From a virus, in the IMG/VR virus record IMGVR_UViG_3300049846_001207, positions 1 through 26,350 of that record: a DNA stretch of 26,350 nt. One strand, given 5' to 3'. Position 1 is the first letter of the stretch, and each line of letters begins with the position of its first letter. The translations under genes and the position numbers were made by a program. Under the pieces are notes generated by a model. That model was not told where the DNA came from, did no database searches, and saw only the letters and a list, made by a program, of their open reading frames with translations. Below are positions 3,779 to 26,350 of this stretch, piece after piece.

Positions 3779-4157
3779 TTTTTACACTATCTTCCCATGA
3801 ACGGAATAATAAATTACCTTTTAAATATGCTTCAGCTTCAATCTTTTTTAATCTACTATCTTCATTTACATTAGATGTACTAGGAGTACCTAACGTACCA
3901 CTAAGGTTTTGGTGATGATGTATAAGCTCATGTGCATACGATCTCAACACATCTTTTAAATGTCGGCCCTCAGTATATAAAGATATAGATTTATTAGTAG
4001 GGTCATAATATGCAGTCTTGCCAAAAGGATTTTCTGCATTTTTAGAATCCTTTACTATTTTAACTGAAGGATATGGTTTTAATGTTAACTTATTTTCTAA
4101 AAAAAATTTAGTTAAACTACCAATATATTCCGATATAGATTTTTTAGTTGCTTTCAC
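3771..4157 (-). CDS. Small zinc metallopeptidase with HExxH motif
   Basis: Protein of 128 residues with a perfect zinc-binding helix AHELIHHHQ: His76, Glu77 and His80. A plausible third ligand is Glu107 or Glu109 in IEAEAY, about 30 residues on, the usual arrangement in gluzincin-like minimal metalloproteases. Residues 45-66 (an AYYDPTNKSISLY stretch) look like the beta hairpin that precedes the active helix. The N-terminus MKATKKSISEY contains an (I)xE site like other proteins here. No signal peptide or transmembrane segment is seen. It overlaps the 80-residue gene by 4 bases (ATGA) and the gp15-like gene by 8 bases, so it is locked into the neck operon. The substrate is unknown; a virion-associated or assembly protease is inferred. 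Confidence 0.82.
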   Translation of the reverse strand: MKATKKSISEYIGSLTKFFLENKLTLKPYPSVKIVKDSKNAENPFGKTAYYDPTNKSISLYTEGRHLKDVLRSYAHELIHHHQNLSGTLGTPSTSNVNEDSRLKKIEAEAYLKGNLLFRSWEDSVKNG

Positions 4158-4396
4158 CTAACTGATATTTTAATAGTGAAATATTTATCTACCAACCCGG
4201 CTTTAGTTATTACATCTAGTATACGCTTAGCGTGACTTATATGATTACCGGATGCGAAAACTTCAATTGCTAAATCTATTTTTTTGTCTGCAAATAAATG
4301 ATTCACATTACCATTCGCTCTAACAAGTTTCTTATCCGAGCTCCTAATCACAAATGTGTCTGTAGTTGATTCTTTTAATAATTGTTTTAATTTCAT
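4154..4396 (-). CDS. Hypothetical 80-residue protein with MKLKxLLKE start
   Basis: I do not recognise a family. The N-terminus MKLKQLLKES matches the short basic/hydrophobic leader seen on several other proteins here and has an LKE|S site of the kind cut by T4-type prohead proteases. The rest (residues 12-80) looks like a small alpha/beta domain (TFVIRSSDKKLVRA, a helix HISHAKRILDVITKAG, then KYFTIKISVR). It overlaps gp14-like by 4 bases (ATGA) upstream and the metallopeptidase by 4 bases downstream, so the three are translationally coupled. A small packaged or neck-associated protein is possible. Confidence 0.75.
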   Translation of the reverse strand: MKLKQLLKESTTDTFVIRSSDKKLVRANGNVNHLFADKKIDLAIEVFASGNHISHAKRILDVITKAGLVDKYFTIKISVR

Positions 4397-4964: not shown

Positions 4965-5648
4965 TTAGTATCTAGAATCTCCCATTTCTCCTCGACCACC
5001 CATTAAAATATCATCTATGGCTTGATCAAAATCTCCTTCAAAATCTTCATCTTTTTTCATAGCCGTTTTAAGAACGTTCAATGTCGCTGTGGGATCGTTA
5101 ATTGGTAATTTAGTTTTAATTTGCTTTTCCAAATCCTTAATAAGTCGTTTCGCTTGTTTCGAGTACATAGCGATCTTTAACATTTTATATAGTTCCTTAA
5201 CATTTTCTTTGGGGGTACGGTAATATTCTTTTAATATGGTCTTACCTTCATTTAATTTTTTAACCTTAACTTTCTCCATCTTTTGGTCTTTCTTAACCTC
5301 AGGTTTTTTAAATTGGTATTTAACTAAAAGATTGTCTACATACTCCATAAACAATTCATGCTTATCTTTTTGTATAAACTCTTTTAATTCTTTAATCAAA
5401 TCATTAGGTGTTTTAAAATGCCCGGCCATGTGGCACTCCAATATATGACGCTTTAATAATTTAGGTGTAAATTTATCTGCGTAACGAATCATTTCTTTTA
5501 CGAATTGATCCGGTAGCGTTTCTTCATTAAAGTTAACTTCGTCTATTCCCTTTTTAAGTTTAGATTCGGAAAGAATCTTCTTTTTTCTTTCTTCTATAAC
5601 TTCCTTTATTATAGACCTGATTACTTTTCTTAGTTCTGATTTTTTCAT
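4965..5648 (-). CDS. Lysine-rich helical protein with capsid-targeting-like N-terminus
   Basis: Protein of 227 residues, no family recognised. The start MKKSELRKVIRSIIKEVIEE is a basic amphipathic helix with IKE and LSE sites; openings of this MKKSELRxxI type are, from memory, frequent on unknown proteins of aquatic phages. Residues 44-110 are helical and contain His/Cys (RHILECHMAGH, 68-77). Residues 111-130 form a Lys-rich linker that is duplicated after the stop. Residues 132-150 start a second part (LNEGKTILKEY) with further (L)xE sites, then two or three helices and a Gly-rich end MGGRGEMGDSRY. The two-part layout suggests fusion of two small proteins. It sits between gp13-like and gp14-like neck genes, two bases after gp13's stop. 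A packaged internal protein is inferred. Confidence 0.75.
   Translation of the reverse strand: MKKSELRKVIRSIIKEVIEERKKKILSESKLKKGIDEVNFNEETLPDQFVKEMIRYADKFTPKLLKRHILECHMAGHFKTPNDLIKELKEFIQKDKHELFMEYVDNLLVKYQFKKPEVKKDQKMEKVKVKKLNEGKTILKEYYRTPKENVKELYKMLKIAMYSKQAKRLIKDLEKQIKTKLPINDPTATLNVLKTAMKKDEDFEGDFDQAIDDILMGGRGEMGDSRY
5259..5318 (-). repeat. 60-bp direct repeat, copy 2 (inside the 227-residue gene)
   Basis: Encodes residues 111-130 of the helical protein. The other copy is at 4905-4964, after the stop codon in the same frame. Confidence 0.85.
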
Positions 5649-5650
5649 AA

Positions 5651-6826
5651 TTATCCAATATAAATTTTTAAAGGGACTCCCTTCATAGTGTTTTGTAAAT
5701 TTGTTGCTATTTCCTGTTCATTAGCCATTAATGCTTTTCTAGATAATTGCTCTAAATTTTCTCTTAATAGCGTAATTAATTTTTCTTTTTCTTGCTGAGC
5801 TTGTGATACTAAATCCGCACCATTTAAAGTAGTTTCACTACCCGGGATAGGAATAGTGGAATATTTGTTTCGTATATTACCTAACAATTCTTTACATAAA
5901 GCTAAAGTGTACTGCCATATCCATTGTTTACCTATATCATTAATATTAATATAATCAATATTAGTATATGTAGCATTAGAATAATCCGATATTGAACCGG
6001 AATTTAATAATAATGGATTATTTCTATCTTCTTTTACTATATAATGGAACCATAATCTATATGAATCCCTAGGAATAGGAAATATTCTTAAATGATTTCC
6101 GGTAATATCAAATGAATAAGCAGATTTTCTTATTTGATCATTTAACTCAATAGCTTGTAATCTTAATATATCTGCGTAAATCGGCATCATAATAAAATTA
6201 ACTGCTGGCGAGTAATTACCCCAACCGAATGAATCCAATAAATTTTGAGTTCCCATGCCCGTACCAACGAATGGGTCAAAATATCTTACTATTGCGGGAG
6301 GGCCTTCATGAAATATTTTCTTTATCTCTATTGACCTACTCTGTTCATACACATCAGCAAATAAAGTATCTAAATCATAAACTTGCTGATTTGCATTAAC
6401 CTGTATACTTCCCGATTTATATGGTATTTTACCACCGGTACCGGCTTCCGTACCGTAATTTTCTGCAATATCTATTATAGAACCCAAGTTATTAGATATA
6501 ACTCTTTGTGTCAAATCATTAGAAGTGCTAGAACCCCTTAAAGATAATAAGTGATCTCTTATATTAAATTGATTTACTTGAGAAGAATATTCCGTAACAG
6601 CTTCTTCAAAACAAGCCCAAAAATTAATATCCTGCATTTCAATCTCCATAATTGGATACCCCATTCTTCTGGCTGCCCAATTAGCTACTTTATCTGCATC
6701 CGATTTAAATTGTGTGTCGGAATCATATAAACCAAATGGCGTAGGTGCTATACTTATAGACCCAGTATAATAAGATGCGGAATACGCACTAAATGATGAT
6801 GATCCCGGCCAAATAGCGATGTTCAT
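5651..6826 (-). CDS. 13: Neck protein (gp13-like)
   Basis: Protein of 391 residues (T4 gp13: 309). The core pattern of T4-type gp13 is visible. ADKVANWAARRMGYPIMEIE (44-63) is followed by an acidic helix WACFEEAVTEYSSQVNQF. Near the C-terminus an IWQYTLALCKELLGNIRNKY helix leads into STIPIPG and an LNGADL segment, then a Glu/Lys-rich helix (EKEKLITLLRENLEQLSRK), the same order as in gp13 of aquatic T4-like phages. The middle (residues 150-290) contains an FFxxHYIVKE-type beta part. The first 30 residues are Ser/Tyr-rich and look like an added tail. It should connect the portal vertex to gp14 and the tail. It is preceded by a candidate promoter motif and follows the fibre genes rather than head completion genes. 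Confidence 0.75.
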   Translation of the reverse strand: MNIAIWPGSSSFSAYSASYYTGSISIAPTPFGLYDSDTQFKSDADKVANWAARRMGYPIMEIEMQDINFWACFEEAVTEYSSQVNQFNIRDHLLSLRGSSTSNDLTQRVISNNLGSIIDIAENYGTEAGTGGKIPYKSGSIQVNANQQVYDLDTLFADVYEQSRSIEIKKIFHEGPPAIVRYFDPFVGTGMGTQNLLDSFGWGNYSPAVNFIMMPIYADILRLQAIELNDQIRKSAYSFDITGNHLRIFPIPRDSYRLWFHYIVKEDRNNPLLLNSGSISDYSNATYTNIDYININDIGKQWIWQYTLALCKELLGNIRNKYSTIPIPGSETTLNGADLVSQAQQEKEKLITLLRENLEQLSRKALMANEQEIATNLQNTMKGVPLKIYIG

Positions 6827-6873: not shown

Positions 6874-9800
6874 TTATTCAGCTTCCCACATATAAACCTT
6901 TGCGACTGCCGTTCCAGTTTCAGTCCATGCTATATCGAATCCCGTAGAAGTTACGTTTTGTATCACTCCCGTAACAAAAGAGTTAGCACCTGTTTGAATG
7001 TTCACCGCGTATGTTGTTGACGTGTTTGCGTTCTGAGTCGTTGTTATTGCTGCTGTGTTGTATGTTTGCGTTATACACCTGTTACCATTTGCTGATGTCC
7101 ATATTCCTATCGAGAACGGAGTCGGTGTTGCGGACGCGTTTGATGTGAACTGAGACATTCCGTAGATACGTATTTTCATAGGTACTCTACCTAAACCATG
7201 ATTGACGGTGTCGGTTTGTGTTGCGGTAGGTGAAGTACCTACTCCTGCGGTAGATGCTATTCTTGCATCTACCACCCCGGTGAAACTAGCAGTACCACTC
7301 GAACTAATATATAATTGCGTATTTATTGATGCTGAATTAAATCCACCTACAAAAAATTCAATTTTAGAATTAGGACCAGCTGGCGTTGCATTACCTATCA
7401 TTAATCTACTGCCCGTGGTATACAAATACCCATCTCCTGCAGTTCCAACTCCGTTACCATTATTAATATAACCGGAACCGTTCATACCTATATTAGTATA
7501 ACCACCGGTTTCAGTACCATTATTCGCAGTAATCACAAAATCTCCGGAAGCGGAATTACCAGCTGATAAATTTTTAAGATTTATCTGCGTGTAATTGTTA
7601 TGATTACTTTTAATAGTCATTATATTAAAAGAAGCATTGGCATTAGTATCTATATTAACAGTTTCCGTATTAGTTCCCGTTAATGATGCAGTATTTACTA
7701 ATAATGACCCAGTTAAAAATAAATACTTGGTGGTTTTATCAAATGTTAAATCACTACTACCACTTACAGTACCGGAGTCGTTAAATTGTATAGCTTTATT
7801 CGTACCTGCAGGAGCTGCCGTTGCAGACACACCGGTTAAACCAGATCCGTCACCTTTAAATGATCCGGTAAAGGATCCTGTGAAACTACCCGTTCCGCTA
7901 TATGCTATTGAAGATTTATCTGCCCATGATGAAGTACCAAATAATGATCCAGTAAATTGTGATCCGGAAAATATAGATGCGGTTATAGCACCGGCAAAAA
8001 GAGCCCCGTCATTAGAAATAAACGATCCGGTTATTGTTAAAGACCCGGATACAAGTACAGCAGTCGTTGAACTACCTACACCAAAAGCCGCTATTCCTGA
8101 ATCTAAACTTAAAGTATTAGTACTAGGATTAAATTTAAACGCGGAATCATGGAAAAATGTTTTTAATCCTGTAGTTATTGAATCACCTAAAATTATGGGG
8201 TAATTAGAGTTTGCAGATCCTAGACCCGTATATATAGATCCGCTATAACCGGATCCGGAAATAGGAACATTAATTTTTACCGATTCTGTATTAAATAAAG
8301 CTACATCAGATCGAACCGTTCCCGTTGTATTTCCTCCACCGACTATAAATACAGCCGATGTATTACCATGTGTATTTGATTGCCCGACTACAGTTTGGAA
8401 TGAACCACTTGCAACGGTGCCGGCCCCAGCAGAAAATGATGCAGTTCCATATGCTACGGATCCGCTACCGATAGTGTGACTCCATGGACCAATAGTCCTA
8501 GTCTTTAGTCCTTCTGCATGGGATGCTAAACCATTGGCTATAGTTTGGGATCCTTCTGCATGGCTATAATCATTCGTAGCAGATGTATTATCACCCTCCG
8601 TATGTGAATATAAACCACTAGCATTTGTATAAAACCCTTCAGCGTGTGCACCTTGATTATTGGTTTCAGAAGTATATCCTTCCGCATGCGAGTAATTTCC
8701 ATTCGCAGCAGTACCATATCCCTCCGAATGTGCACCTTGTGCTAATGCGTTGGTTCCTGTATAATGTCCTTCTGCATGAGAACTGGCTCCTAACGCACCG
8801 GTATTTAATCCTTCTGCGTGGGAATACGTCCCCTGCGCATTAGTAGTATTTCCTTCCGCATGCGAGTAATTTCCATTCGCAGCAGTACCGAATCCTTCGG
8901 CATGAGAATTTGATCCGGAAGCACTAGTACCATATCCTTCAGCATGACTATAATCACCTGTGGTGGTCGTATATTGTCCTTCAGCATGACTATACTGACC
9001 GAATGAACTAGAATATAAATGTTGCGATGCTGTATATTCAGCTATCGGATTACCATTAATACTGAATTCAGTTGATACTGATGCTGATGCTATTGTATAG
9101 TCGGTATTTAATGAAACCCCGGCGCCTTCTAATTGCCATGTTCCTCCACCTAAATCTGTTACGTTAGTTATGACATATGTTTCTGTATCTCCGGGATTCC
9201 CGGCACTGCCCGTAACGGTAACGGACATTGATGGTGGATTAGTATTATTATATCCATTATTAAAATAATCATACCATAGTGAACTAGTTACTACAACATA
9301 GTTACTACCATTGATTGTTATATTACCTTCATATAATGATCTAGAAACATATACCTCAGGTATCCCTCCTAATAAAACGCCTGTTGTGTTATTATAGCCT
9401 TCTGCGTGGGATCCATGACCAATAGCAAATGTAGTATATCCTTCCGCGTGAGCACCTATACCATATGCGTATGCAATTACACCCTCAGCATGAGATGCTG
9501 ATCCCGATGCTATTGAACTTGACCCCTCAGCATGACTATAATTTCCACTTGCAAATGTGTTAATTCCTTCAGCGTGGCTATACGATCCTAATATAGTATT
9601 TAGAATGCCAGTGTTTATACTGCCAGTAAGGAATACTTCATTAGTAGTTTTATTAAAAGTGAAATTACTACTTCCTGACGTTGAACCTGCATCGTTAAAT
9701 TGGATAGATTTATTTGGACCAGCTGGCGCAGCTGTCGCAACTATACCCGTCAACCCCGATCCATTTCCTACAAAACTACCTGAGAAAGATCCTGAAAATA

Positions 9801-10197
9801 TACCATTTCCGGAAGTTGCGTGACTTGAAGTAACTGCATATGATGCCGATGTAACGCTACCCAATAAAAACGATGCAGTTAAAGCATGGGATGCAGTGAC
9901 TGCATTATTAGCCCAAGAAGCCGTAGCAATATATGATGCCGTAGCTGAATTTTGTGAATATGATGAACTAACTGCATTTAATACATATGATGCTGATTGT
10001 GCTAAAGTAACATACGAAGCTGTATTAGCTTGAATAGCATAGCTAGCGCTATCAATTAATCCGGTAATAGATCCGGAAAAACTACCTGTAAAAGTAGAAT
10101 CCGATCCTCCAATTCGGACAACCGCACTTGAAGAAACTATTAATGAACTAGTTACTTCTAAATTATCAAAACTACCACTATTATTAAAATATATCAT
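6874..10197 (-). CDS. Long tail fibre with SHAEG repeat array
   Basis: Protein of 1107 residues. Order: a short N-terminal beta part; Ser/Ala/Thr repeats of the ASYxxTASWANNAVTAS kind (50-128); a module GSGLTGIVATAAPAGPNKSI with QFNDxG following (134-193); a 14-residue SHAEG array (206-577, about 18 units) like the YadA head/Hep_Hag repeat, interrupted at about 270-400 by a domain shared with the other long fibre; a stalk; a second copy of the QFNDxG module (771-831); and a C-terminal tip (975-1107) of different codon use. Trimeric and beta-helical by family analogy. No S74 chaperone domain is recognised. The tip is the likely receptor-binding part. The ATG is five bases from a candidate promoter motif. 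Confidence 0.88.
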   Translation of the reverse strand: MIYFNNSGSFDNLEVTSSLIVSSSAVVRIGGSDSTFTGSFSGSITGLIDSASYAIQANTASYVTLAQSASYVLNAVSSSYSQNSATASYIATASWANNAVTASHALTASFLLGSVTSASYAVTSSHATSGNGIFSGSFSGSFVGNGSGLTGIVATAAPAGPNKSIQFNDAGSTSGSSNFTFNKTTNEVFLTGSINTGILNTILGSYSHAEGINTFASGNYSHAEGSSSIASGSASHAEGVIAYAYGIGAHAEGYTTFAIGHGSHAEGYNNTTGVLLGGIPEVYVSRSLYEGNITINGSNYVVVTSSLWYDYFNNGYNNTNPPSMSVTVTGSAGNPGDTETYVITNVTDLGGGTWQLEGAGVSLNTDYTIASASVSTEFSINGNPIAEYTASQHLYSSSFGQYSHAEGQYTTTTGDYSHAEGYGTSASGSNSHAEGFGTAANGNYSHAEGNTTNAQGTYSHAEGLNTGALGASSHAEGHYTGTNALAQGAHSEGYGTAANGNYSHAEGYTSETNNQGAHAEGFYTNASGLYSHTEGDNTSATNDYSHAEGSQTIANGLASHAEGLKTRTIGPWSHTIGSGSVAYGTASFSAGAGTVASGSFQTVVGQSNTHGNTSAVFIVGGGNTTGTVRSDVALFNTESVKINVPISGSGYSGSIYTGLGSANSNYPIILGDSITTGLKTFFHDSAFKFNPSTNTLSLDSGIAAFGVGSSTTAVLVSGSLTITGSFISNDGALFAGAITASIFSGSQFTGSLFGTSSWADKSSIAYSGTGSFTGSFTGSFKGDGSGLTGVSATAAPAGTNKAIQFNDSGTVSGSSDLTFDKTTKYLFLTGSLLVNTASLTGTNTETVNIDTNANASFNIMTIKSNHNNYTQINLKNLSAGNSASGDFVITANNGTETGGYTNIGMNGSGYINNGNGVGTAGDGYLYTTGSRLMIGNATPAGPNSKIEFFVGGFNSASINTQLYISSSGTASFTGVVDARIASTAGVGTSPTATQTDTVNHGLGRVPMKIRIYGMSQFTSNASATPTPFSIGIWTSANGNRCITQTYNTAAITTTQNANTSTTYAVNIQTGANSFVTGVIQNVTSTGFDIAWTETGTAVAKVYMWEAE
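7705..7887 (-). repeat. Fibre module copy (GSGLTG...QFNDxG...FLTGS)
   Basis: Encodes residues 771-831 of the 1107-residue fibre. It is one of three close copies of a module of about 60 residues in two fibre genes (others at 9619-9798 and 16971-17153). Confidence 0.75.
8467..9582 (-). repeat. SHAEG 14-residue repeat array, first fibre
   Basis: About 18 units with consensus SHAEGxxTxAxGxx (42 bases each). The array is interrupted at about 8992-9396 by a non-repeat domain. Variants include SHTEG, AHSEG, AHAEG and a terminal SHTIG. It is coding repeat DNA in the fibre, not an array of non-coding repeats. Confidence 0.9.
9619..9798 (-). repeat. Fibre module copy (GSGLTG...QFNDxG...FLTGS)
   Basis: Encodes residues 134-193 of the 1107-residue fibre, directly N-terminal to its SHAEG array. 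The matching module in the 1271-residue fibre is N-terminal to that array too. Confidence 0.75.
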
Positions 10198-10203
10198 ATA
10201 TTA

Positions 10204-10211
10204 ATAAATAT
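10204..10211 (-). promoter_or_regulatory. Candidate promoter motif ATATTTAT
   Basis: The coding strand reads ATATTTATTAATATATG, with the octamer six bases from the ATG of the long fibre. The gap between genes is only 15 bases, so the motif occupies most of it. Confidence 0.33.
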
Positions 10212-10212
10212 C

Positions 10213-11880
10213 TTATCCATTAAATTCTCCATAACTCATAGCTTGCCAAGAGGCGGTGCCTATGAGTGCAGTATTACTATTAGAATTAATAACAAAACTA
10301 CCTGCTAATTTAGATTCATATGTCCATGTTCTAACATCTTCGCCTGTTATAGTTATTGTATAATTAGTATTAGGAAATGCAGTACTAAATGTTACTGTAG
10401 CTTTCTTAGGATTGCCGGAAAATGAACCCCCTACTACTATATTATTTTTTATTATTGACCCATTTACATAAGAAGCGGTTGCGGCATATGAAGAAGTAAC
10501 ACTATTATTAGACCACGACGCCGTAGCTATGTAAGATGCAGTAATTGCGTTATTAGACCAACTCGAAGTAGCAACATAAGAAGCCGTTTGTGCTAAAGTA
10601 ACATAAGAAGCGGTCTGTGCTAATACAACATAAGATGCCGTTACTGCATTTGTTGACCACGAGCTCGTAGCTACGTATGAAGCAGTAATAGCATTAAGTG
10701 CCCAACTACTAGTTGCTATATATGATGCCGTAATAGCATTTATTGCCCAACTCGAAGTAGACGCATATGAAGCTGATACTACCGGTGTATCCAAATATGA
10801 TGCTGTCAATGAATAAGAAGCAGTGACAGTATTATTGCTCCAGGATGAAGTACCGAATAAACTTCCGGTAATTCCTTGAGATATATTTATACTACCAGAT
10901 AATGAATAACTACCAGATAATAATTTAGAATATACCCAATACTGACTCGACGAATCAAAAATCATTAAATCACCATAAGCTACATTTGATGATGCGGATA
11001 CTTCAGATATATCATGGAAATGCAATGGGCCGATTGGTCGAACCATCATTTTGCCAGCACCGCCATTACTTGCAACAGTAACAATACCGATAAACATCTT
11101 ATCATATGGAGGTAATGGGCGAACATTAGTAATTTCACCCGCACTACTACTAACATATAATCGATCACCCGCAGTGTATTGCGCCGTTGGAAATATACTT
11201 AAATCAGTTAAAGTTCCTTGTGTAACTACAAACCCATCTTGTCCATTTAAAATAGTCTCGGATACTACTCCCAATAATAAATTGGTATTTTCATATCCAT
11301 TTTGAAAATTAATAGTAGATTGTGCCAATGAAACTGAAGGTCTGTCACCCTGGGCACCTGTGATTTTTACTACCTGTCCTTTATTTAACGCAACACCGGT
11401 ATTATTCCTAACTCTAATTACATTTTCTTGACCTATATGAACTAAACTAGCACTATTATAATATGCTAACGCATGATCTGTACCATCATAGAATAATCTA
11501 CCTTGTAATAAAGCAGGGTCAACTGATTGCGTTACAAAATCTATATATTCACGTACTTTAAATATATCTGAACTAGAAGCTGTGGCTGCATAAGAAGCGC
11601 TATTAGCATTTAATACATAACTCGATGTACTAGCATAAGACGCACTAATAGCAGTTAAAGCGTGGGATGCTGTTACTGCGTTTAGTGCCCAAGATGAGGT
11701 AGCAACATAACTTGCAGTAATAGCATTTAAGGCCCATGAGCTCGTCGCTATATAGGAAGAAGTAGCTGCATAACTAGCAGTACCAAATAAACTACCAGTA
11801 AAGAAACTCTGTGTTAAGTTCGTTCCTAAACTTCCTGATAATTGGTTAGTTCCTATAATATTTGCGTTGAATATTTTCAT
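10213..11880 (-). CDS. Tail fibre with 15-residue Ser/Thr/Ala repeats
   Basis: Protein of 555 residues. Residues 31-103 and 341-471 are arrays of about 15 residues per unit (SSWALNAITASYVAT type). Between them, residues 150-290 form a compact beta domain (NNTGVALNKGQVVKITGAQG, then GVVSETILNGQDGFVVTQGT and AGDRLYVSSSAGEI), a domain seen in many phage fibres. After the second array, residues 473-555 (IIKNNIVVGGSFSGNPKKAT to the end) form a beta-rich tip with several aromatic residues (TWTYESK, SWQAMSY), the likely contact end. The ATG overlaps the stop of the 541-residue gene as TAATG, so the two are coupled and may act in one structure. Confidence 0.85.
   Translation of the reverse strand: MKIFNANIIGTNQLSGSLGTNLTQSFFTGSLFGTASYAATSSYIATSSWALNAITASYVATSSWALNAVTASHALTAISASYASTSSYVLNANSASYAATASSSDIFKVREYIDFVTQSVDPALLQGRLFYDGTDHALAYYNSASLVHIGQENVIRVRNNTGVALNKGQVVKITGAQGDRPSVSLAQSTINFQNGYENTNLLLGVVSETILNGQDGFVVTQGTLTDLSIFPTAQYTAGDRLYVSSSAGEITNVRPLPPYDKMFIGIVTVASNGGAGKMMVRPIGPLHFHDISEVSASSNVAYGDLMIFDSSSQYWVYSKLLSGSYSLSGSINISQGITGSLFGTSSWSNNTVTASYSLTASYLDTPVVSASYASTSSWAINAITASYIATSSWALNAITASYVATSSWSTNAVTASYVVLAQTASYVTLAQTASYVATSSWSNNAITASYIATASWSNNSVTSSYAATASYVNGSIIKNNIVVGGSFSGNPKKATVTFSTAFPNTNYTITITGEDVRTWTYESKLAGSFVINSNSNTALIGTASWQAMSYGEFNG
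10468..10860 (-). repeat. 15-residue fibre repeat array (C-terminal)
   Basis: Encodes residues 341-471 of the 555-residue fibre. The unit is about 45 bases, consensus SSWxxNAITASYxAT, with a shorter nine-residue variant AQTASYVTL in the middle. Confidence 0.8.
11572..11790 (-). repeat. 15-residue fibre repeat array (N-terminal)
   Basis: Encodes residues 31-103 of the 555-residue fibre with the same ASYVATSSWALNA-type units as the later array. Confidence 0.75.
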
Positions 11881-18260: not shown

Positions 18261-19883
18261 TTATAGAGTTTCCATACCTTTAACATAGATTTTACCGAAG
18301 AACTCAGGACGCAACATTTTCTTAGCGTAACGAGTCATCACACCTCTGTTTGGTGTATATGTTGCTGGATCATATACAAGTGGTGTCATCATCAACGGAA
18401 TATAAGGTGCATACACAGCTCCTGTTTCTAAGAACTGAGAACCTCTGAATCCCATCAATACGGTGTTTTCCAACATATAAGGGTTGATATAAACATCATA
18501 TTGTGAATTCATTTGTCCTACTTTCTGAACACCCATAGCGAATTTCATTTTTTCGCCTCTATCAGATGCAGCATATCCTGGAATTGAATCCATGATAGTT
18601 GCAACGTCAGGAGATACTACAACGAAATTAGCTCCGCCACGCATAGTCAATTGGTGAATCTTGTTACTTACTTTCTTCATTTTATGACCTAAAGTAGCAA
18701 ACCAAGTACCTTGCTGGTTATAGAATCCTAAACCAGTTGTACCACCAGTACCTTGCCATGCTGAACCATCCCAATATTGGTTGTTTACAACTGACCATCT
18801 ATCAACAGTCAATGCATTAACCATCAACATATCAATGATTTCAAGATCTATTTCCATAGAAATATATTCTGAAAGCAATGAAGTTAATTCAGCTTCAGCA
18901 TCAATTGAATGGTACGCATTCAAGTCTTGCGCCATTTCAGGAGTCCATTGTGCTTTTAACTTTTTAGTCTTAGCAACGATAGCCTCACTTCTCATTTGAA
19001 GATCAATTTGAGGAATTTGAGTTGATATAGAAGAGTTATTTTGGTTATAAATACCATTTGAATATAAATCTTCAAAATCACCTCTAGTGTCTTGCGTATT
19101 AGTACGCAACCACGTAAACACAGCTGTACTAGTAGATCCTAAACCAGAACCAGAAATAACGAACTGGTAATTACCACCGCTCAATTTAGTGAACTGAGGT
19201 AGGAATCCGTTAATAGTACCAGTTCCAGATGCAACTTGGAAAGCACGAACTGCATCAGCGTCTGAACTAGAGAATGATGATGTAGCAACTAAAATAGTAC
19301 GATAAGATCCAGTTACTGAATCAAATGTAGTATCATAGTTTACATCAGCGGCTGCTATTGATGAAGTAGCACCAATTACGATTGAAGCACTTACTTCATT
19401 TGAAGTAAATCCAAAACGTCCGGCACCATAAAGACCTCCTGTAGCAACGTCTGTTCTACCGAAGTTAGCAGCACCACCTGTATTCGAACCTCCGAATAGT
19501 GATGTACCTGCAGTAAATCCAGGTTGAGCATTTGTTGATGAATATTTGAAATCCAAGAAGAACACAAGTCCTGATGGCATATTCATCGGTTGAACGCTAA
19601 CGAAATCTTTAGATGAAATCTCACCGAAAATTCTACGTACTAATGGAAGAGCTACACCTGACCATGCTTCTGAGTTAGCAGTAGTTCCAGTGCTGGTAGC
19701 TTCAGCGATAAGACGCTTAGCTTGGTTTTCCAACATCACGGCCATTGCTGACACCTCAAATGGTTGGTCGATGCCTTCCAAAAGTCCCGATTTTTTCCAC
19801 TTAGCGATAAGTGGCTTTGTCTGATTTTGCATTACTAAGTAATCGGTGTTTTCACTTAGCAATTCATTAATTGTTTTTCCCAT
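18261..19883 (-). CDS. 23: Major capsid protein (gp23-like)
   Basis: Protein of 540 residues forming the capsid hexamers. Conserved parts: VSVQPMNMPSGLVFFLDFKY (T4: GVQPMNSPTGQVFAL); SEAIVAKTKKLKAQWTPEMA then QDLNAYHSIDAEAELTSLLS; NFVVVSPDVATIMDSIPGY; YDVYINPYM; GAVYAPYIPLM; and the C-terminal RPEFFGKIYVKGMETL. The N-terminal propeptide ends at IAE61|A62 in KRLIAEATST, matching the gp21-type cut site (T4: TE|A at 65), so the mature chain would be about 479 residues. A Ser/Thr/Gly-rich insertion around 130-260 is likely the surface domain. The A-rich leader AAAAACCTTAAACAAAATT lacks a Shine-Dalgarno. It follows gp22 closely and ends in a strong terminator. Confidence 0.96.
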   Translation of the reverse strand: MGKTINELLSENTDYLVMQNQTKPLIAKWKKSGLLEGIDQPFEVSAMAVMLENQAKRLIAEATSTGTTANSEAWSGVALPLVRRIFGEISSKDFVSVQPMNMPSGLVFFLDFKYSSTNAQPGFTAGTSLFGGSNTGGAANFGRTDVATGGLYGAGRFGFTSNEVSASIVIGATSSIAAADVNYDTTFDSVTGSYRTILVATSSFSSSDADAVRAFQVASGTGTINGFLPQFTKLSGGNYQFVISGSGLGSTSTAVFTWLRTNTQDTRGDFEDLYSNGIYNQNNSSISTQIPQIDLQMRSEAIVAKTKKLKAQWTPEMAQDLNAYHSIDAEAELTSLLSEYISMEIDLEIIDMLMVNALTVDRWSVVNNQYWDGSAWQGTGGTTGLGFYNQQGTWFATLGHKMKKVSNKIHQLTMRGGANFVVVSPDVATIMDSIPGYAASDRGEKMKFAMGVQKVGQMNSQYDVYINPYMLENTVLMGFRGSQFLETGAVYAPYIPLMMTPLVYDPATYTPNRGVMTRYAKKMLRPEFFGKIYVKGMETL

Positions 19884-19917: not shown

Positions 19918-20829
19918 TTATTTCTTTTTAATATTTGCCAAATGTTGGAATCTTTCAGCAAGTTCATTACCTGATTCTAATACTGGCTTCTTTGTTCCGG
20001 CAACTGCTTTTGATGCACCACCAATTGCTTCAGTGATTTTCTTCTTTGCAGTGTCCTTAGCAGAATTAAATGATTCAGCCAAAGTAGAATAAACTAATTT
20101 TACTTCTCTAACTGAATTGGTTCTATCCAACGACTCAAGAATCTTAACTTTTTGCTTTTCATTTAAAGCATAATTCTTGAACAATTTATTTGAATACAAT
20201 AATTTAGCATTCAAAAGATTGATTTCATTGATTTTCTTTTTCAAGAATATCACTGTGTTGCGATATTCGCTCAATTCAGATTTCAAAGACTTAATTTCAT
20301 CAACTTTTTCTTCTTCATCTTCTTCTTTTGTTTCATTAACACCAGAATCATCACCCAATTCAGCTAAAAGTTCATCTAAATCAATTTCTTCATCATCTGA
20401 ATCCGCTGCTGATTTAGTTTCTTTTACATCATCTAGGTCCAATTCTTCGGCATCCGTTTTTCCTTCTTCTACTTCGTCCTCAGTTTCTTCTGAATCTTTT
20501 TCCAATTCAGCTAAAATAGCATTAAGATCGATATCTTCATCCACTTCGTCTTCCTCTTCGGTTTCTTCAGCAGAATCATCATCATCTCCTTTTGCTTCTT
20601 CAACTTCCTCAGTTTCATCAGCTTCTTCTTCGTCCTTAGTTTCTAAGGTAATAGTTTCTTCAACTTCGTCTTCGTCTTCTAGTTCGTCCTCTTCTTCATT
20701 AATCTTTGCAGAAAGCATTGATTGAAGCTTCGGAGCAAACGCTTCTTCCAAAGCGATTTTGGCATTAGCTAACGCAGTTTCTTTAACTGTTTTAGCATCG
20801 GCAATAGCCTCTTTTAGTAATTTGTCCAT
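19918..20829 (-). CDS. 22: Prohead core scaffolding protein (gp22-like)
   Basis: Protein of 303 residues that should form the core around which gp23 assembles and then be degraded by gp21. The N-terminus MDKLLKEAIADAKTVKETAL is helical with an LKE|A site. Residues about 47-180 are extremely acidic (Asp/Glu blocks such as EEEDELEDEDEVEE). Residues 183-240 form a coiled coil with LLNAKLLYSNKLFKNYALNE and KVKILESLDR, followed by SVREVKLVYSTLAESF, the signature of gp22 in aquatic T4-like phages. The end is basic. It lies directly upstream of gp23, as in T4. The antisense strand shows an open serine-rich frame that is only a shadow of the acidic codons. Confidence 0.92.
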   Translation of the reverse strand: MDKLLKEAIADAKTVKETALANAKIALEEAFAPKLQSMLSAKINEEEDELEDEDEVEETITLETKDEEEADETEEVEEAKGDDDDSAEETEEEDEVDEDIDLNAILAELEKDSEETEDEVEEGKTDAEELDLDDVKETKSAADSDDEEIDLDELLAELGDDSGVNETKEEDEEEKVDEIKSLKSELSEYRNTVIFLKKKINEINLLNAKLLYSNKLFKNYALNEKQKVKILESLDRTNSVREVKLVYSTLAESFNSAKDTAKKKITEAIGGASKAVAGTKKPVLESGNELAERFQHLANIKKK

Positions 20830-21028: not shown

Positions 21029-21532
21029 TTATTCGTCGTCCCCGTCGATTGGCTCATCTTTTATCTTTCCACCAAATATATCTTCTTGAGACTTTATTTG
21101 TTTAGCTAAAGCAATTAGTGCCTTTTTTATATCATCTTTCTTTTCTGCGGATGTATCCGAATTCTTAAATGCCTTTACTAAAGTCTGTTTCTTTAAATAT
21201 AAATCTTTTAGTTTATTTACAGTTTTACTTAATCCTGCGGATAAAGACCCCTCAGCTTCAGATAATTTACCGGACGCATTGCCTACCTTTTTAAGAATGT
21301 CCTTATATGCTTTTACCATATCCTCAACGCTGACAGCCAATCCTCTATTATCAAAAATATCAGGATTTTCATCATGCAAATCATGCAGGTGATTAGCTAC
21401 TAAAGACATTCTATTCATAAAATCTTTAAACTTCTTATCTTGCAATATTTCCAAGGTAGCCATAACCTTATCCTGTGCAACGGACACGTCATCAAATGAT
21501 GATATTTCTTTTATTAATTTTCTTAGTTTCAT
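21029..21532 (-). CDS. Helical hypothetical protein with MKLRKLIKE start
   Basis: Protein of 167 residues, no family recognised. The N-terminus MKLRKLIKEISSFDD carries the leader motif with an IKE|I site. The rest is almost wholly helical, with a lysine-rich second half (KLKDLYLKKQTLVKAFKN) and an acidic end (KIKDEPIDGDDE). It also contains LSE at about 92-94. It is the last gene of the gp21 operon, seven bases after the 79-residue gene and just before a terminator. The size, helical make-up, leader and position between the prohead protease and scaffold resemble the small core/internal proteins of T4 (gp67, gp68, IPs) in style, not in recognisable sequence. Confidence 0.78.
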   Translation of the reverse strand: MKLRKLIKEISSFDDVSVAQDKVMATLEILQDKKFKDFMNRMSLVANHLHDLHDENPDIFDNRGLAVSVEDMVKAYKDILKKVGNASGKLSEAEGSLSAGLSKTVNKLKDLYLKKQTLVKAFKNSDTSAEKKDDIKKALIALAKQIKSQEDIFGGKIKDEPIDGDDE

Positions 21533-21539
21533 TTTCCTA

Positions 21540-21779
21540 TTATTGATTTATTGATTCCAAATCTTTAAGTATTTTTGTACTATCATCAAATGACGAAAAG
21601 AATTCCTGTATTTTACCTTTATGTTCATCATTTTCATAACTAGCGTCGTATAATATAGACAACTGTTTTTTGAATTCCGCAGAATTTAATAAACTAAGTA
21701 GCTCCCGGGCTGCATTAGCTATTTCCGGATATCCATAATATTGTTGATTCTCTAATAATTTTTTTAGTTTTATTGCCAT
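21540..21779 (-). CDS. Small helical hypothetical protein with KLKKLLE start
   Basis: Protein of 79 residues, no family recognised. MAIKLKKLLENQQYY repeats the basic/hydrophobic leader with an LLE|N site. Residues 18-79 appear to form three helices (PEIANAARELLSLLNSAEF, then an acidic KIQEFFSSFDDS stretch). It starts one base past the stop of the 334-residue gene and ends seven bases before the next gene, so it belongs to the same operon. A packaged core protein is inferred from the leader and position. Confidence 0.75.
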   Translation of the reverse strand: MAIKLKKLLENQQYYGYPEIANAARELLSLLNSAEFKKQLSILYDASYENDEHKGKIQEFFSSFDDSTKILKDLESINQ

Positions 21780-21780
21780 A

Positions 21781-22785
21781 TCAATCTAATATATCTTCGT
21801 AATTTACTACAATTATGTTATCGCCTACTTTAACCGATACACCTGTTTTAGTTGCCCCCATTAATATTCCGGTATTATCTATGACCGGATATTGATTATA
21901 CTTCTTTACCTTGGCCATATTGAATTTAACATTCGGTTCCTCCGATTGCGCAGGAGCATCTTCTGGTGCATCATCTGCAGGTGCATCTTCTGGTTTATCT
22001 TCCGGTTTATCTTCCGCGGCTTCCAATAATGATGAATAATGTTTCGCTAAACTAAATTCAGCTATTGAAGATGCTTTTAATTTAGCTAATTTTTCTTTTG
22101 CATTTTTCAATGCTACTTCTTTAGCTTTAATATCTTCCTGTGAAGATTTTATTTCTGCGTCTCTAACTTGTTTATCATCTTCATTAAGATCTTCATTAGT
22201 AGTACCGAATTTCTTATCAAATTCTCTAAATACTATTGACGAATCACTGTCTTGACTAGTTAATTTTATAAAATTTTTCAGATTCCATTTATTTGCCGGA
22301 TCTACATCACCTAGAAAAATATATATTTCATTTAATCTCGGTGCTCCCGGTGAAGGATCGGAATATACTATTACTTTTTTATTCCCTAGTGAAAAGGAAT
22401 AAAAAGTACGTTTAGAACCATACCTATCTGGTTCCGTTTTTTTATCAAGTGCTTTTAGTTCCAAATTTTTATTAGTAGCATATTCCTTAATCCACTTAAT
22501 GATATTAGTTATTGTCCACTCTTTATTATAATAAACCTCACTTAGTTTGTCTGATTTTGGTTTCTTCACTTTATCTAATTCTTTTTGAGCAAATTGTTTT
22601 AAATGATTTCTATTAATAGATCCCAGTTTACGATACACATTCCAGGATGCTTCTTGGGCTTCATCTTCCGTAAACCCATTATCCAATAAATTCTGCACCC
22701 ATTCTGCTACTCCGTAGAATCCTCCTTTGGAATTTAACAATTTTAAAAAATTATCAGCTAATTGTGCATTAGTTAAACGTGCCAT
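21781..22785 (-). CDS. Hypothetical protein with acidic Pro/Asp/Glu spacer
   Basis: Protein of 334 residues, no family recognised. Residues 5-60 are helical (LTNAQLADNFLKLLNSKGGF and a FTEDEAQEASWNVYRKLGS helix). Residues 88-165 look like an alpha/beta domain with YSFSLGNKKVIVYSDPSPG. Residues 205-250 form a Lys/Glu coiled coil. Residues 256-284 are a low-complexity acidic spacer (EDKPEDKPEDAPADDAPEDA), immediately after LLE|A at 253-256. A small beta domain follows (288-334; IDNTGILMGATKTGVSVKVG). The leader motif is missing from its N-terminus, but (L)xE sites occur inside (LSE at 81-83, LLE at 253-255), so the C-terminal part might be released. Two bases separate it from the peptidase-like gene upstream. 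Confidence 0.75.
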   Translation of the reverse strand: MARLTNAQLADNFLKLLNSKGGFYGVAEWVQNLLDNGFTEDEAQEASWNVYRKLGSINRNHLKQFAQKELDKVKKPKSDKLSEVYYNKEWTITNIIKWIKEYATNKNLELKALDKKTEPDRYGSKRTFYSFSLGNKKVIVYSDPSPGAPRLNEIYIFLGDVDPANKWNLKNFIKLTSQDSDSSIVFREFDKKFGTTNEDLNEDDKQVRDAEIKSSQEDIKAKEVALKNAKEKLAKLKASSIAEFSLAKHYSSLLEAAEDKPEDKPEDAPADDAPEDAPAQSEEPNVKFNMAKVKKYNQYPVIDNTGILMGATKTGVSVKVGDNIIVVNYEDILD

Positions 22786-22787
22786 AA

Positions 22788-23882
22788 TTATACACCAAAA
22801 TAAGATTCGATTTCATTTTTGATAGTCCCTGGTTCATATTTACCATTACCTACTTGCTTTAAGATAGGAAGAATGCTTTGTCTAGTTAAACTAGGATCTT
22901 TCTTCATAATAAACTTAAACAATTTTTGGTATTGCGCATCACTTAAAAAGGAAGGATTTATTGTATCTTTAAAATATTTTGATATAGTAGTTTTGAATAT
23001 ATCCAATGTTAATGGCGTGTCTGCTGCTGCTATTTCATCAATTTCCATTTCTTTGACGATATCCTTCAATCCGAATTTCTTAATTTCTTTCTGTAAAAAA
23101 CGTAAACGCTCGCTCATTTTAACTAGCTTACGGCCCGTTGATTTCCAATAATCTCCTAACGCTAATCCTTCTTCTTCTCTTAATTTTTTATTTTGTTTAA
23201 GGTACCTCTCAATTTCAAATAAAGCTCTATTACATTCTTTTATCGCAATATTTAATTTTTGCTTTGATGATATAGAAGTATCATTCTTATATTCTTTATA
23301 CGTAATCTCGTTAAGTAAGTCTTTAAATTTCATACTACTTTCTGCTAAATTTTTATTTTTAATGTCATTCATTACATTTTCCAAGTCAATACCTATATTT
23401 CCTATCTGATACCGACTGAACCATGGATTCCACCCATGCTTGTCTTCCACCCATTTAGTTAAGGTTTGTATATTCATACCTTCAAGAAAATTCTTTACCG
23501 GTATTTGTGAATTTACCCATTTTCTAGTATGTATGCCCTCACTATCAATCAAATGTTTATCATCACCGGGCATCTTTAACATAACGTGAACCGCATAACA
23601 TCCTGATTTGTCATTGAATTCTCTAAATGTCGGATATGAATTTATATCTTTAATAGGTTGCTCTTTATCTGCAGTTGCGAAATTCAATAAAATAATCTCA
23701 GGAGTAATTCCAAACCACTTCTTTATCGTGTAATATAAAAGTTTAGCGAATGCACCACAGCCACCTGAATTTATACTATCATATCTCCTATGTATGGCTC
23801 GTATGTCCTGATTAAACTGTTTCTCTTCGGTACCGGATAGTGCCCCAGTTTTACTAGATTCATGAATTAACTTAAGTTTCAT
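22788..23882 (-). CDS. Papain/NlpC-like cysteine peptidase-fold protein B
   Basis: Protein of 364 residues with leader MKLKLIHES (IHE|S). Residues 35-145 form the core: INSGGCGAFAKLLYYTIKKW with Cys42, GCYAVHVMLKM with His99, and KHLIDSEGIHT with Asp113. This Cys-His-Asp order is that of papain-fold (NlpC/P60 or transglutaminase-like) enzymes. Residues 137-156 (MNIQTLTKWVEDKHGWNPWF) are also conserved in the neighbour, its upstream paralogue. At 184 a second leader-like segment begins, MKFKDLLNEIT, followed by a helical Lys-rich domain (205-280) and a small C-terminal domain, as if two packaged proteins were fused. Activity is inferred from three residues and the paralogue; it may bind rather than cleave. 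Confidence 0.75.
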   Translation of the reverse strand: MKLKLIHESSKTGALSGTEEKQFNQDIRAIHRRYDSINSGGCGAFAKLLYYTIKKWFGITPEIILLNFATADKEQPIKDINSYPTFREFNDKSGCYAVHVMLKMPGDDKHLIDSEGIHTRKWVNSQIPVKNFLEGMNIQTLTKWVEDKHGWNPWFSRYQIGNIGIDLENVMNDIKNKNLAESSMKFKDLLNEITYKEYKNDTSISSKQKLNIAIKECNRALFEIERYLKQNKKLREEEGLALGDYWKSTGRKLVKMSERLRFLQKEIKKFGLKDIVKEMEIDEIAAADTPLTLDIFKTTISKYFKDTINPSFLSDAQYQKLFKFIMKKDPSLTRQSILPILKQVGNGKYEPGTIKNEIESYFGV

Positions 23883-23883
23883 T

Positions 23884-25239
23884 TTACTTTAGTTTCAATA
23901 ATTTATTACCGTATCTTACTGCCGCATATAGAGACTCTACTATATCTTTAATAGCTTCTGGTCCATTAGCATCAAATGCTTCTTCCATATATGCTACTAA
24001 ATCATTTTCAATTTCACGCTCCGTAGTCCATTTAGAATTGATATTGGATTTATATTTATACCCAACCTCTTGCAATCTAGTATTAGTATTTACTTCCGTT
24101 TTACCTTCATTCATAGGTTTAAACCAATTATTAGTTTTCGGTGCTTTCATAAATCCTTGTTTCTTAGCAGTTTCTTGCGCAGCGTTAGATGTTTGTCCTT
24201 TTTTGGAAAAAGCTTTCGGGGTTTGGTAACCAGGAACTCCACCTGTTGTCGATTCTTCGTTTGCCTTTTTATCAAATTTCACTACTATATTATATCCGGA
24301 TAACTCTTTTTTACCTAACTTTATCAATGTACCGAATATATCCGGGCCAAATCCTTTAGCTTCCATGTGCTTTACAAAATCATGCACTCCTTCGTCCGGA
24401 AAATACGCCAGCTGTACATGATCATGTTTGTCATACATAAAAGACAACCAACCGGTACCATATTTATATGTTTTAATACTACCACCCTTTGCTTTTATCT
24501 TAATATCACTAAGCCCCGGTAATTTTTCGAATTTATCTACAATATCTTGTAATTCATTATCACCAAAATTTAATGTAGTTTGTTGTTCAGTAACTGACAT
24601 CGATTCTTCCCATTTACCGGGTTTCGAAGGTTTATATGCTTCGTCTAATGTCTCGCGAACTATACTTCGGATCGTTTCTTTTAATTTTGTCATCTCCTTT
24701 ATTTCACTGCTCTTTTCACCTATTTTCTCTGCTGCTTTTAGTTGTTTCATAACATTTTCTAGTTGTTTAGCTATATTAGGAATTTCATTTCTATCAAATG
24801 TAGGATTCCACATATGAGCAGTATTTACCCATTTACTCAAAGTTTTGATAGTCATTTCAGTATTTAATATCGGTAACCTCATCTTTTTTTCGACAAAGTC
24901 AACCGTATGTATTCCGGTGCTATCAATAACATATTTACTGTTAGGGCCAATCATTATAGCTATATGATCCCATGGATGATAATCGGTACGAATTATATCT
25001 AAATTGATATCGCGGTCATCTTCATGCCTCATGAAAACAGCTATCGTTGGATCTATACCGAATTCTTTTTTAACAGCGTAGTAAAGTAATTTAGCGAATG
25101 CTCCGCATCCGCCGGTATTAATATTATCATGCCTATCTTTTCTATACTTAGAATCTATATGACGTAATCCTATATTCAGAGCCTTTTCTTTTGACCCCGT
25201 AGTAATTCCTGTCTTGCTATCCTCAGTACGAATTTCCAT
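23884..25239 (-). CDS. Papain/NlpC-like cysteine peptidase-fold protein A
   Basis: Protein of 451 residues; ATG is the first possible start after the gp21 stop. The N-terminal 165 residues match the next gene: SKTG near residue 10, NINTGGCGAFAKLLYYAVKK (Cys45), WDHIAIMIG (His92), KYVIDSTGIHT (Asp106) and MTIKTLSKWVNTAHMWNPTF. His and Asp are 14 residues apart in both. At 183 a leader-like MTKLKETIRSIVRETLDEAY begins. Residues 222-325 form an alpha/beta domain (GWLSFMYDKHDHVQLAYFPD), then a linker with GVPGYQTPKAFSKKG, an NEGK site and a helical end. Its own N-terminus (MEIRTEDSKTG) lacks the Lys/Leu leader. It lies just after the prohead protease gene. Peptidase, amidase or inactive structural roles are all open. 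Confidence 0.75.
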   Translation of the reverse strand: MEIRTEDSKTGITTGSKEKALNIGLRHIDSKYRKDRHDNINTGGCGAFAKLLYYAVKKEFGIDPTIAVFMRHEDDRDINLDIIRTDYHPWDHIAIMIGPNSKYVIDSTGIHTVDFVEKKMRLPILNTEMTIKTLSKWVNTAHMWNPTFDRNEIPNIAKQLENVMKQLKAAEKIGEKSSEIKEMTKLKETIRSIVRETLDEAYKPSKPGKWEESMSVTEQQTTLNFGDNELQDIVDKFEKLPGLSDIKIKAKGGSIKTYKYGTGWLSFMYDKHDHVQLAYFPDEGVHDFVKHMEAKGFGPDIFGTLIKLGKKELSGYNIVVKFDKKANEESTTGGVPGYQTPKAFSKKGQTSNAAQETAKKQGFMKAPKTNNWFKPMNEGKTEVNTNTRLQEVGYKYKSNINSKWTTEREIENDLVAYMEEAFDANGPEAIKDIVESLYAAVRYGNKLLKLK

Positions 25240-25245
25240 TAAGTC

Positions 25246-25854
25246 TTAGAACTTTATATTTTGTGATATTAAGATATCCGTTACTATTTTATTTATTTTA
25301 TCGTATTTGCCAACGGTTCTAGAACCTTGAACAGATTCATTTACAGGCGCCATGAAAGCTCCGTGAGTGCTAGGATTTGATACAAAGTCCCAAGCTACTA
25401 ATTCAAAATCATCTTGTACTTCAACTGAATTTTCATCCAATTGCTTAACAGATCCCAACCCTCGTGAACTAATACCTAATGTTATCCCAGCTTCGAAAAG
25501 TTCTTTTAAAATTTTACCTGCAGGAGTGTTCAATACCTCAATAGTACCTTGAACATCATTACCATTCCAATGTACTTCTAATATATTATGCGACACATTA
25601 CTAAGATTCACTACTGAACTATCAGGGTGATCTAGCTCTCCTAATGCACGTTTCTGCGCTATATTAGTGGAAGCATATTTTTTTATTTCACGTTCCAATA
25701 TAGTGCGTGGATATATACGACCATTCTGATTCTTAGATTCGGCTCGTTGCAAAACTCCTTTAACAATTAAACGACCATCATTTTCTTTCAATGATTCGTT
25801 TATTTGTTCCCTAGATATCCTAAACGGTATATAGTCTACTAATATATGTTTCAT
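25246..25854 (-). CDS. 21: Prohead core protease (gp21-like)
   Basis: Protein of 202 residues, close to T4 gp21 (212). It matures the prohead by cutting scaffold, capsid and internal proteins after (L/I)-x-E. Matches to T4: GRLIVKGVLQRAES then NGRIYPRTILEREIKKY (T4: NKRLYPKRILEKAVKDY), RALGELDHP with catalytic His76 (T4: QALGELNHP), WNGNDVQGTIEVLNTPAG, and LGISSRGLGSV with the catalytic Ser at 129/130 (T4: PGVSSRGLGS). AWDFVSNPSTHGAF may supply the acidic residue. INE|S (18-21) and VNE|S (171-174) are likely self-processing sites. The ATG overlaps the stop of the upstream gene as TAATG. It opens an operon of six genes ending at the terminator near 21000. Confidence 0.95.
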   Translation of the reverse strand: MKHILVDYIPFRISREQINESLKENDGRLIVKGVLQRAESKNQNGRIYPRTILEREIKKYASTNIAQKRALGELDHPDSSVVNLSNVSHNILEVHWNGNDVQGTIEVLNTPAGKILKELFEAGITLGISSRGLGSVKQLDENSVEVQDDFELVAWDFVSNPSTHGAFMAPVNESVQGSRTVGKYDKINKIVTDILISQNIKF

Positions 25855-26350
25855 TACTTTGTTATATTATTTAATTCTTTTTCCAATTTGTAAATATGAA
25901 GTATTGTTAATAATGTAGATTCGTTAAATTTCTTTTTGGAAATAATACCATCCATTATATTAATAACTTCTGTAATTTTTATTTTGGTTGCAGAATCTTG
26001 TATTTTTTTATTTTTCTTCGAAATATCAGCTTTCAATCTAACCAATTCCGAATCAATATATGATTTCATAGTATCGGAATTAGAAACATTATTAATATAT
26101 TCACGCAATAATGATTTTTCTTTATCACCTAAATTAGTATATTTTTGATTAAATCGATCTACTAAAATCTTATACGCCAATTTACGTACACTATCGTCCT
26201 GTTTTTCATACTCTTCTAATATAGTGGTTCTAGTAGTCTTACCGTCAATAGGTTTGGCAGTAATAAATTCAACCAACGTACACCTTGAAGTTACAACTTC
26301 AGCCGGGCTAAAAGTAAAATCATTATTTTCTAGTAACTTATATATAGAAG
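25854..26350 (-). CDS. Helical protein upstream of gp21 (5' end outside window)
   Basis: The frame is open from the stop at 25854 to the right edge, giving at least 165 residues. A TTG at 26276-26274 is not needed as a start because the frame continues upstream as SIYKLLENNDFTFSPAEVVT. The protein is mostly helical and charged (KLAYKILVDRFNQKYTNLGD, then SLLREYINNVSNSDTMKSYI, and a Lys-rich coiled coil). I recall LLREYINNVSN-type proteins beside head genes of aquatic T4-like phages, without known function. Its place directly before the prohead protease matches that of T4 gp67/gp68 core proteins, but I see no sequence proof. TAATG coupling to gp21. Confidence 0.8.
   Translation of the reverse strand, partial: SIYKLLENNDFTFSPAEVVTSRCTLVEFITAKPIDGKTTRTTILEEYEKQDDSVRKLAYKILVDRFNQKYTNLGDKEKSLLREYINNVSNSDTMKSYIDSELVRLKADISKKNKKIQDSATKIKITEVINIMDGIISKKKFNESTLLTILHIYKLEKELNNITK

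Follow-up and report, generated by a model that had tools for sequence, protein, structure and literature searches.

A putative Cys-His-Asp enzyme module fused to both halves of a split core-type protein in the head-gene cluster of a T4-like phage

Two adjacent genes lie between the prohead protease and the scaffold of a T4-type head cluster, and the question they raise is whether their products build the head, mature it or travel inside it. T4-like phages use short targeting leaders to bring proteins into their heads, and, to our knowledge, few cargo enzymes of such heads are known. The window analysed here is a virus record of 26,350 bases whose minus strand encodes head and tail proteins of T4 type (Table 1). 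The gene order on that strand is the end of the slot-67 gene, the S77 prohead protease, p451, p364, a 334-aa ORF, two small ORFs, a scaffold-like gene and the major capsid protein gene. The names slot-67 and slot-68 are positional, denoting two gene positions between portal and protease, and do not imply orthology with T4 gp67 or gp68. A first-pass annotation had placed two tandem paralogues between protease and scaffold. Its coordinates were right, and three further ORFs (334, 79 and 167 aa) separate p364 from the scaffold-like ORF.

Table 1. Features of the head-gene region of the window and of the composite proteins p451 and p364
Feature	Position	Strand	Evidence or remark
Slot-67 gene, C-terminal part	25854-26348	-	Stop overlaps protease start
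S77 prohead protease, T4 gp21-like	25246-25854	-	PF03420, E 1e-32
p451, 451 aa	23884-25239	-	ORF
Cys-His-Asp module copy A, p451 residues 1-183	24691-25239	-	Cys45, His92, Asp106, Trp144-Asn145
p451 residues 184-451: leader-like TKLKETIRSIVRETLDE, domain ~200-318, slot-68 N-half 320-397 (ends LQE-VGYKYK), tail	23884-24690	-	Profile
p364, 364 aa	22788-23882	-	ORF
Cys-His-Asp module copy B, p364 residues 1-183, after leader MKLKLIHE	23334-23882	-	Cys42, His99, Asp113
MKFKDLLNE-I, p364 residues 184-193, leader-like stretch at the fusion junction, including a Met of its own	23304-23333	-	Position-weight matrix score 23.5; maximum of 500 shuffles 20.5
p364 residues 194-364: slot-68 C-half to ~270, then ~95-aa tail	22788-23303	-	Profile, E 4e-23
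334-aa ORF adjoining the p451/p364 pair	21781-22785	-	Residues 267-334 match small protease-scaffold ORFs of relatives, E 7e-8 and 4e-5
Acidic scaffold-like protein, gp22 position	19918-20829	-	Similar ORFs in relatives, over whole length or C-half
Major capsid protein	18261-19883	-	PHROG 138, E 9e-67

The N-terminal regions of the two proteins (residues ~1-183) are 38% identical over 193 aa (BLASTP, 119 bits, E 2e-34), a similarity far beyond chance, and both contain GGCGAFAKLLYY, the shared motif reported earlier. The candidate triad residues are spaced 47 and 14 residues apart in p451 and 57 and 14 in p364. The earlier reading, that a His follows the Cys by 47-57 residues and an Asp follows the His by exactly 14, thus describes this pair correctly and fails as a constraint on the family: alignments with relatives show other His-Asp spacings as well (11 in L013, for instance), while the residues themselves are conserved. 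The equal spacing in p451 and p364 is therefore best ascribed to common descent. A DUF327 match on p451 residues 142-232 (E 2e-4, below cut-off) was discounted, as it overlaps a predicted long helix.

The Cys domain drew no relatives in scans with full-length p451 and p364 or with an alignment of just the pair, and no Pfam or PHROG family matched either protein at cut-off. The bridge to a family was a tblastn match (E 8e-4) in a 634-kb uncultured phage, where a stand-alone protein of 137 aa shares the GGC, the His and the Asp. Viral scans starting from it recovered relatives in IMG/VR and one in Pseudoalteromonas phage PH357. The alignment of 17 sequences comprises the two window proteins and fifteen from IMG/VR, two of which (L015 and L016) are near-identical. 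At identities of 20-47%, all 17 members keep Ile-Asn, N-x-GGC (Gly-Gly-Cys), the His and one Gly, and 16 keep the Asp and likewise Trp-Asn; a W-N-x-x-F signature is also present. Cys, His and Asp are thus among the few aligned residues that never or hardly vary, and, since a family of this size retains them, p451 and p364 are not an isolated curiosity. As judged from the alignments, the module constitutes a phage family of its own, so far without a name. Scans of cellular genomes gave no confirmed relative, and a candidate from Manatee Spring phage ctwe8250 was rejected because its frame has no motif.

Structure models were obtained with AlphaFold2 for p451 residues 1-181 (pLDDT 79, pTM 0.79) and, with 17 alignment rows, for p364 residues 9-162 (pLDDT 86.9, pTM 0.85). 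Both predict the Cys as the first residue of a helix, the His on a strand and the Asp where the following strand ends (C45 on helix 45-60, H92 on strand 92-96 and D106 on strand 103-106 in p451; C34, H91 and D105 in the numbering of the p364 model), an arrangement characteristic of the papain/transglutaminase superfamily. Foldseek searches against the PDB with the p364 domain returned weak matches (E 0.8 or worse), and the p451 model gave no informative ones; the best match in BFVD was an uncharacterised Caudovirales protein (E 1e-11). Among the VIA-align matches listed for the p364 model, arylamine N-acetyltransferases score best (Z up to 6.0, 2bsz), followed by SseI (Z 5.8), human NTAQ1 (Z 5.0, rmsd 3.6 over 111 residues), protein glutaminase (Z 4.8), pseudomurein endoisopeptidases (Z about 4) and NlpC/P60, autolysin and endolysin domains (Z 2.6-3.9); staphopains, transglutaminases and like folds are listed too. 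All the listed rows belong, by title or by known fold, to the papain/transglutaminase superfamily. Z values of 6 or less are individually weak and prove nothing, and it is the consistency of the list that carries weight.

On these models, the module very likely belongs to the papain/transglutaminase superfamily. Like arylamine N-acetyltransferase, NTAQ1, protein glutaminase and SseI, it is predicted to have its Cys at a helix start and the His and Asp on strands next to each other, the matches to these enzymes extending over 105-123 residues at Z 4-6; unlike them, it has a small core and its own N-x-GGC and W-N-x-x-F signature, and no sequence match connects it to them. None of the NlpC/P60, papain (C1), CHAP or transglutaminase-core profiles exceeded its curated cut-off in the window proteins or their relatives, the transglutaminase-core profile (Transglut_core) reaching 13.5 bits against a cut-off of 23 in one distant member. 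PF24591 (Phage_YunG-like) did not match the window proteins; it matched the distant PH357 relative below cut-off, covering Cys, His and Asp (E 7e-4, 19.8 bits against a curated 27). Family conservation, the models and the fold list together support an enzyme-type Cys-His-Asp fold with putative catalytic residues. The papain/NlpC/transglutaminase pattern that the first-pass annotation had recognised therefore stands at the level of fold, and the structure prediction and fold search that it proposed gave a superfamily-consistent list, albeit of weak single matches. The more specific assignment to NlpC/P60 is not supported, as no such profile matches and chains of that family score below the acetyltransferases, SseI, NTAQ1 and protein glutaminase.

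How such a domain might reach the capsid is suggested by the residues in front of it. Seven stand-alone relatives carry a leader of 10 or 18 residues (L013, L014, L021, L022, L024, L025 and L039), exemplified by MIKLQQILQE followed by SKTG and the domain. The [LI]xE pattern ends one residue before [SG][KR][TS]G in seven of the first eight leader-type members and additionally in L039. T4 gp21 cleaves after L/I-X-E. In IPIII, the ten N-terminal residues are enough to direct a protein to the capsid, positions 4 and 7 serving targeting and 8 and 10 processing (PMC9026906). Leaders of the 10-residue form are hydrophobic at 4, 7 and 8 with Glu at 10, which matches the T4 IPIII CTS geometry. L014 bears a different, longer leader in front of the same domain, pointing to modular exchange of leaders. 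The packaging-like leaders noted earlier are thus present in p364, which keeps [LI]xE as LIHE ahead of its module, and in the seven stand-alone relatives; the N-terminus of p451 (MEIRTE-DSKTG) keeps the Glu and has lost the L/I of the site.

Across ten stretches from relatives, [LI]xE occurs at leader depth in 66 of 149 coding-strand ORFs, as against 21 in shuffled sequences (maximum 32); on the opposite strand it occurs in 1 of 31 ORFs. An S77 protease exceeded cut-off on five of seven contigs with leader-bearing members and on one of ten with leaderless members, a trend only, because the contigs are fragments; in the window the protease and a leader-bearing module occur together. The S77 protease is presumed to process the leaders, and the sequence patterns as a whole support a packaging-leader route into the head. 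The position-weight matrix for short leaders that picks out the fusion junction of p364 (Table 1) did not recognise that of p451. No usable Shine-Dalgarno sequence precedes the internal starts p451 M183 and p364 M184, and starts in this set generally have none.

The C-terminal parts have a different origin. In all eight related records examined, a slot-68 gene lies between the slot-67 gene and the protease. It is not at that place in the window, where the overlap of the slot-67 stop with the protease start implies that the gene has gone from its position. A profile built from the slot-68 proteins of seven relatives nevertheless recovers it within the pair: p364 residues 180-270 correspond to profile positions 84-178 and p451 residues 320-397 to positions 28-107 (E 1e-10), whereas none of 2000 shuffled controls did better than E 0.019. 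The two stretches meet at a conserved xE-x-[ST]YKxYK element (LQE-VGYKYK in p451, LNE-ITYKEYK in p364), which reads [LI]xE in most slot-68 members and is a predicted protease site. Profile comparison thus shows that the C-terminal parts contain the two halves of one ancestral core-type gene, typified by a hypothetical protein of Microcystis phage Mel-JY01 (WWT39308.1). Unlike the single gene upstream of the protease in the eight relatives, the gene in the window is split and lies downstream of the protease, with each half behind a Cys module. No head-protein PHROG matched the slot-68 proteins, and p451 residues 184-318 and p364 residues 271-364 found no relative in nine related records. The C-terminal halves had been described as completely different; they do differ from each other, but both hold pieces of the same gene. 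In the simplest history, the module would have fused to the core gene and the fusion would have been duplicated in tandem, each copy then losing the half that the other kept.

Hence the earlier proposal of a shared delivery module bearing different payloads is better reversed: the Cys domain, which stands alone in other phages, looks like the cargo, and the parts once taken for payloads contain the core-protein halves. As part of the best explanation, p451 and p364 would be composite prohead-core proteins, with an enzyme module in the N-terminal ~180 residues and halves of a core protein behind it. The core-protein halves, the leaders or both would bring the module into the prohead. The S77 protease would then cut at [LI]xE-type sites (E8 and E192 in p364; E182, E188 or E200, and E391 in p451) and free it. 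T4 Alt and the internal proteins enter the host cell along with the DNA; in the same way, the freed enzyme could stay in the head, enter with the DNA and alter a target in the host cytoplasm through hydrolysis, deamidation or acyl transfer. We regard this reading, in which a split core protein carries a Cys-His-Asp enzyme into the head, the protease frees it and it is probably ejected, as a reasonably probable one. Its more particular form, in which the core protein was split at its own protease site so that each half carries an enzyme copy and maturation both builds the capsid and releases enzyme for ejection, is put forward tentatively.

The main rival keeps the modules at home, as an accessory maturation enzyme (a protease, an isopeptidase or a crosslinker of core or shell proteins) acting inside the prohead and not in the host. 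Their fusion to core-protein halves beside the S77 protease and the scaffold would suit such a role. However, relatives keep the same head genes with no module among the ORFs between protease and scaffold, their module lying elsewhere as one unfused copy or not being seen in the contigs examined, and leaderless members are small proteins of jumbo-type and other phages, encoded away from head genes. It is this last distribution that favours ejection and a cytoplasmic target, and we consider the maturation role unlikely. Somewhat less likely still is a non-catalytic structural domain of the superfamily fold that was duplicated along with the core protein. The module is indeed fused to structural proteins, and its catalytic activity is something we infer; against this, the retention of Cys and His in all members and of Asp in all but one, over such divergence, and the occurrence of the module in phages with no core-protein fusion speak for an enzyme. 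A peptidoglycan amidase or endopeptidase of NlpC/P60 or CHAP type, carried in the head and easing DNA through the cell wall, is improbable: wall-lytic domains do appear among the weaker fold matches, but neither profile matches, the superfamily's cytosolic transferases and amidases match better, and many relatives are small stand-alone proteins, too short to hold a wall-binding domain as well.

The favoured reading, of a packaged and probably ejected enzyme, resembles T4 IPI-IPIII and Alt in its short [LI]xE leader with the same hydrophobic and Glu positions, in its T4-type head cluster with an S77 protease, and in that cargo unrelated in sequence has the leader in common. It differs from them in that the putative cargo is a Cys-His-Asp domain rather than an IP or an ADP-ribosyltransferase, and that this domain is joined, in the window, to a core-type protein that has been split. 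In the part of the literature covered, no papain- or transglutaminase-like enzyme is described as cargo of T4-type heads. Beyond the first-pass annotation, the comparisons add a new Cys-His-Asp family with capsid-type leaders, whose leader-bearing members occur in environmental T4-like phages, and a core gene split across two fusions. They also suggest an alternative loading route, by core-protein fusion and release by the maturation protease. The signature N-x-GGC...H...D...W-N-x-x-F after an [LI]xE leader could be used to search for more members, and such natural carrier fusions could guide protein packaging in T4-type capsids.

Several other ORFs deserve mention. The 334-aa ORF of the window also looks composite: in two relatives, small ORFs of the head region match its last 68 residues. 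Four further minus-strand ORFs of the window open with a leader-like N-terminus that finishes in [LI]xE or comes close to it, at 4154-4396 (MKLKQLLKE), 4965-5648 (MKKSELRKVIRSIIKE), 21029-21532 (MKLRKLIKE) and 21540-21779 (MAIKLKKLLEN); since some of these lie among tail genes, such a leader may in some cases mark something other than cargo of the capsid. A 128-aa ORF among the tail genes (3771-4157, minus strand) has a zinc-metallopeptidase-like HELIHHHQ and a DUF6782 match below cut-off (E 0.004). Shine-Dalgarno sequences are rare upstream of the starts of p451, p364, the protease and most relatives, which may indicate a host such as a member of the Bacteroidota. In Mel-JY01 (L009), a 388-aa ORF between protease and scaffold (9653-10819) starts with the leader-like decamer MYEYVEYILE and, with no Pfam match, shows ADP-ribosyltransferase-like motifs by eye in its C-terminal part. 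A 737-aa ORF of L039 (860-3073), likewise with no Pfam match, has the nucleotidyltransferase-like motif LFPGGFKPPHGGH after a leader-like start. In L035, the ORF at 6017-6580 combines the leader MIKLKKIINE with a HAD-phosphatase-like YDFDDTLV and a sub-cut-off HAD match, and its product is possibly another packaged enzyme.
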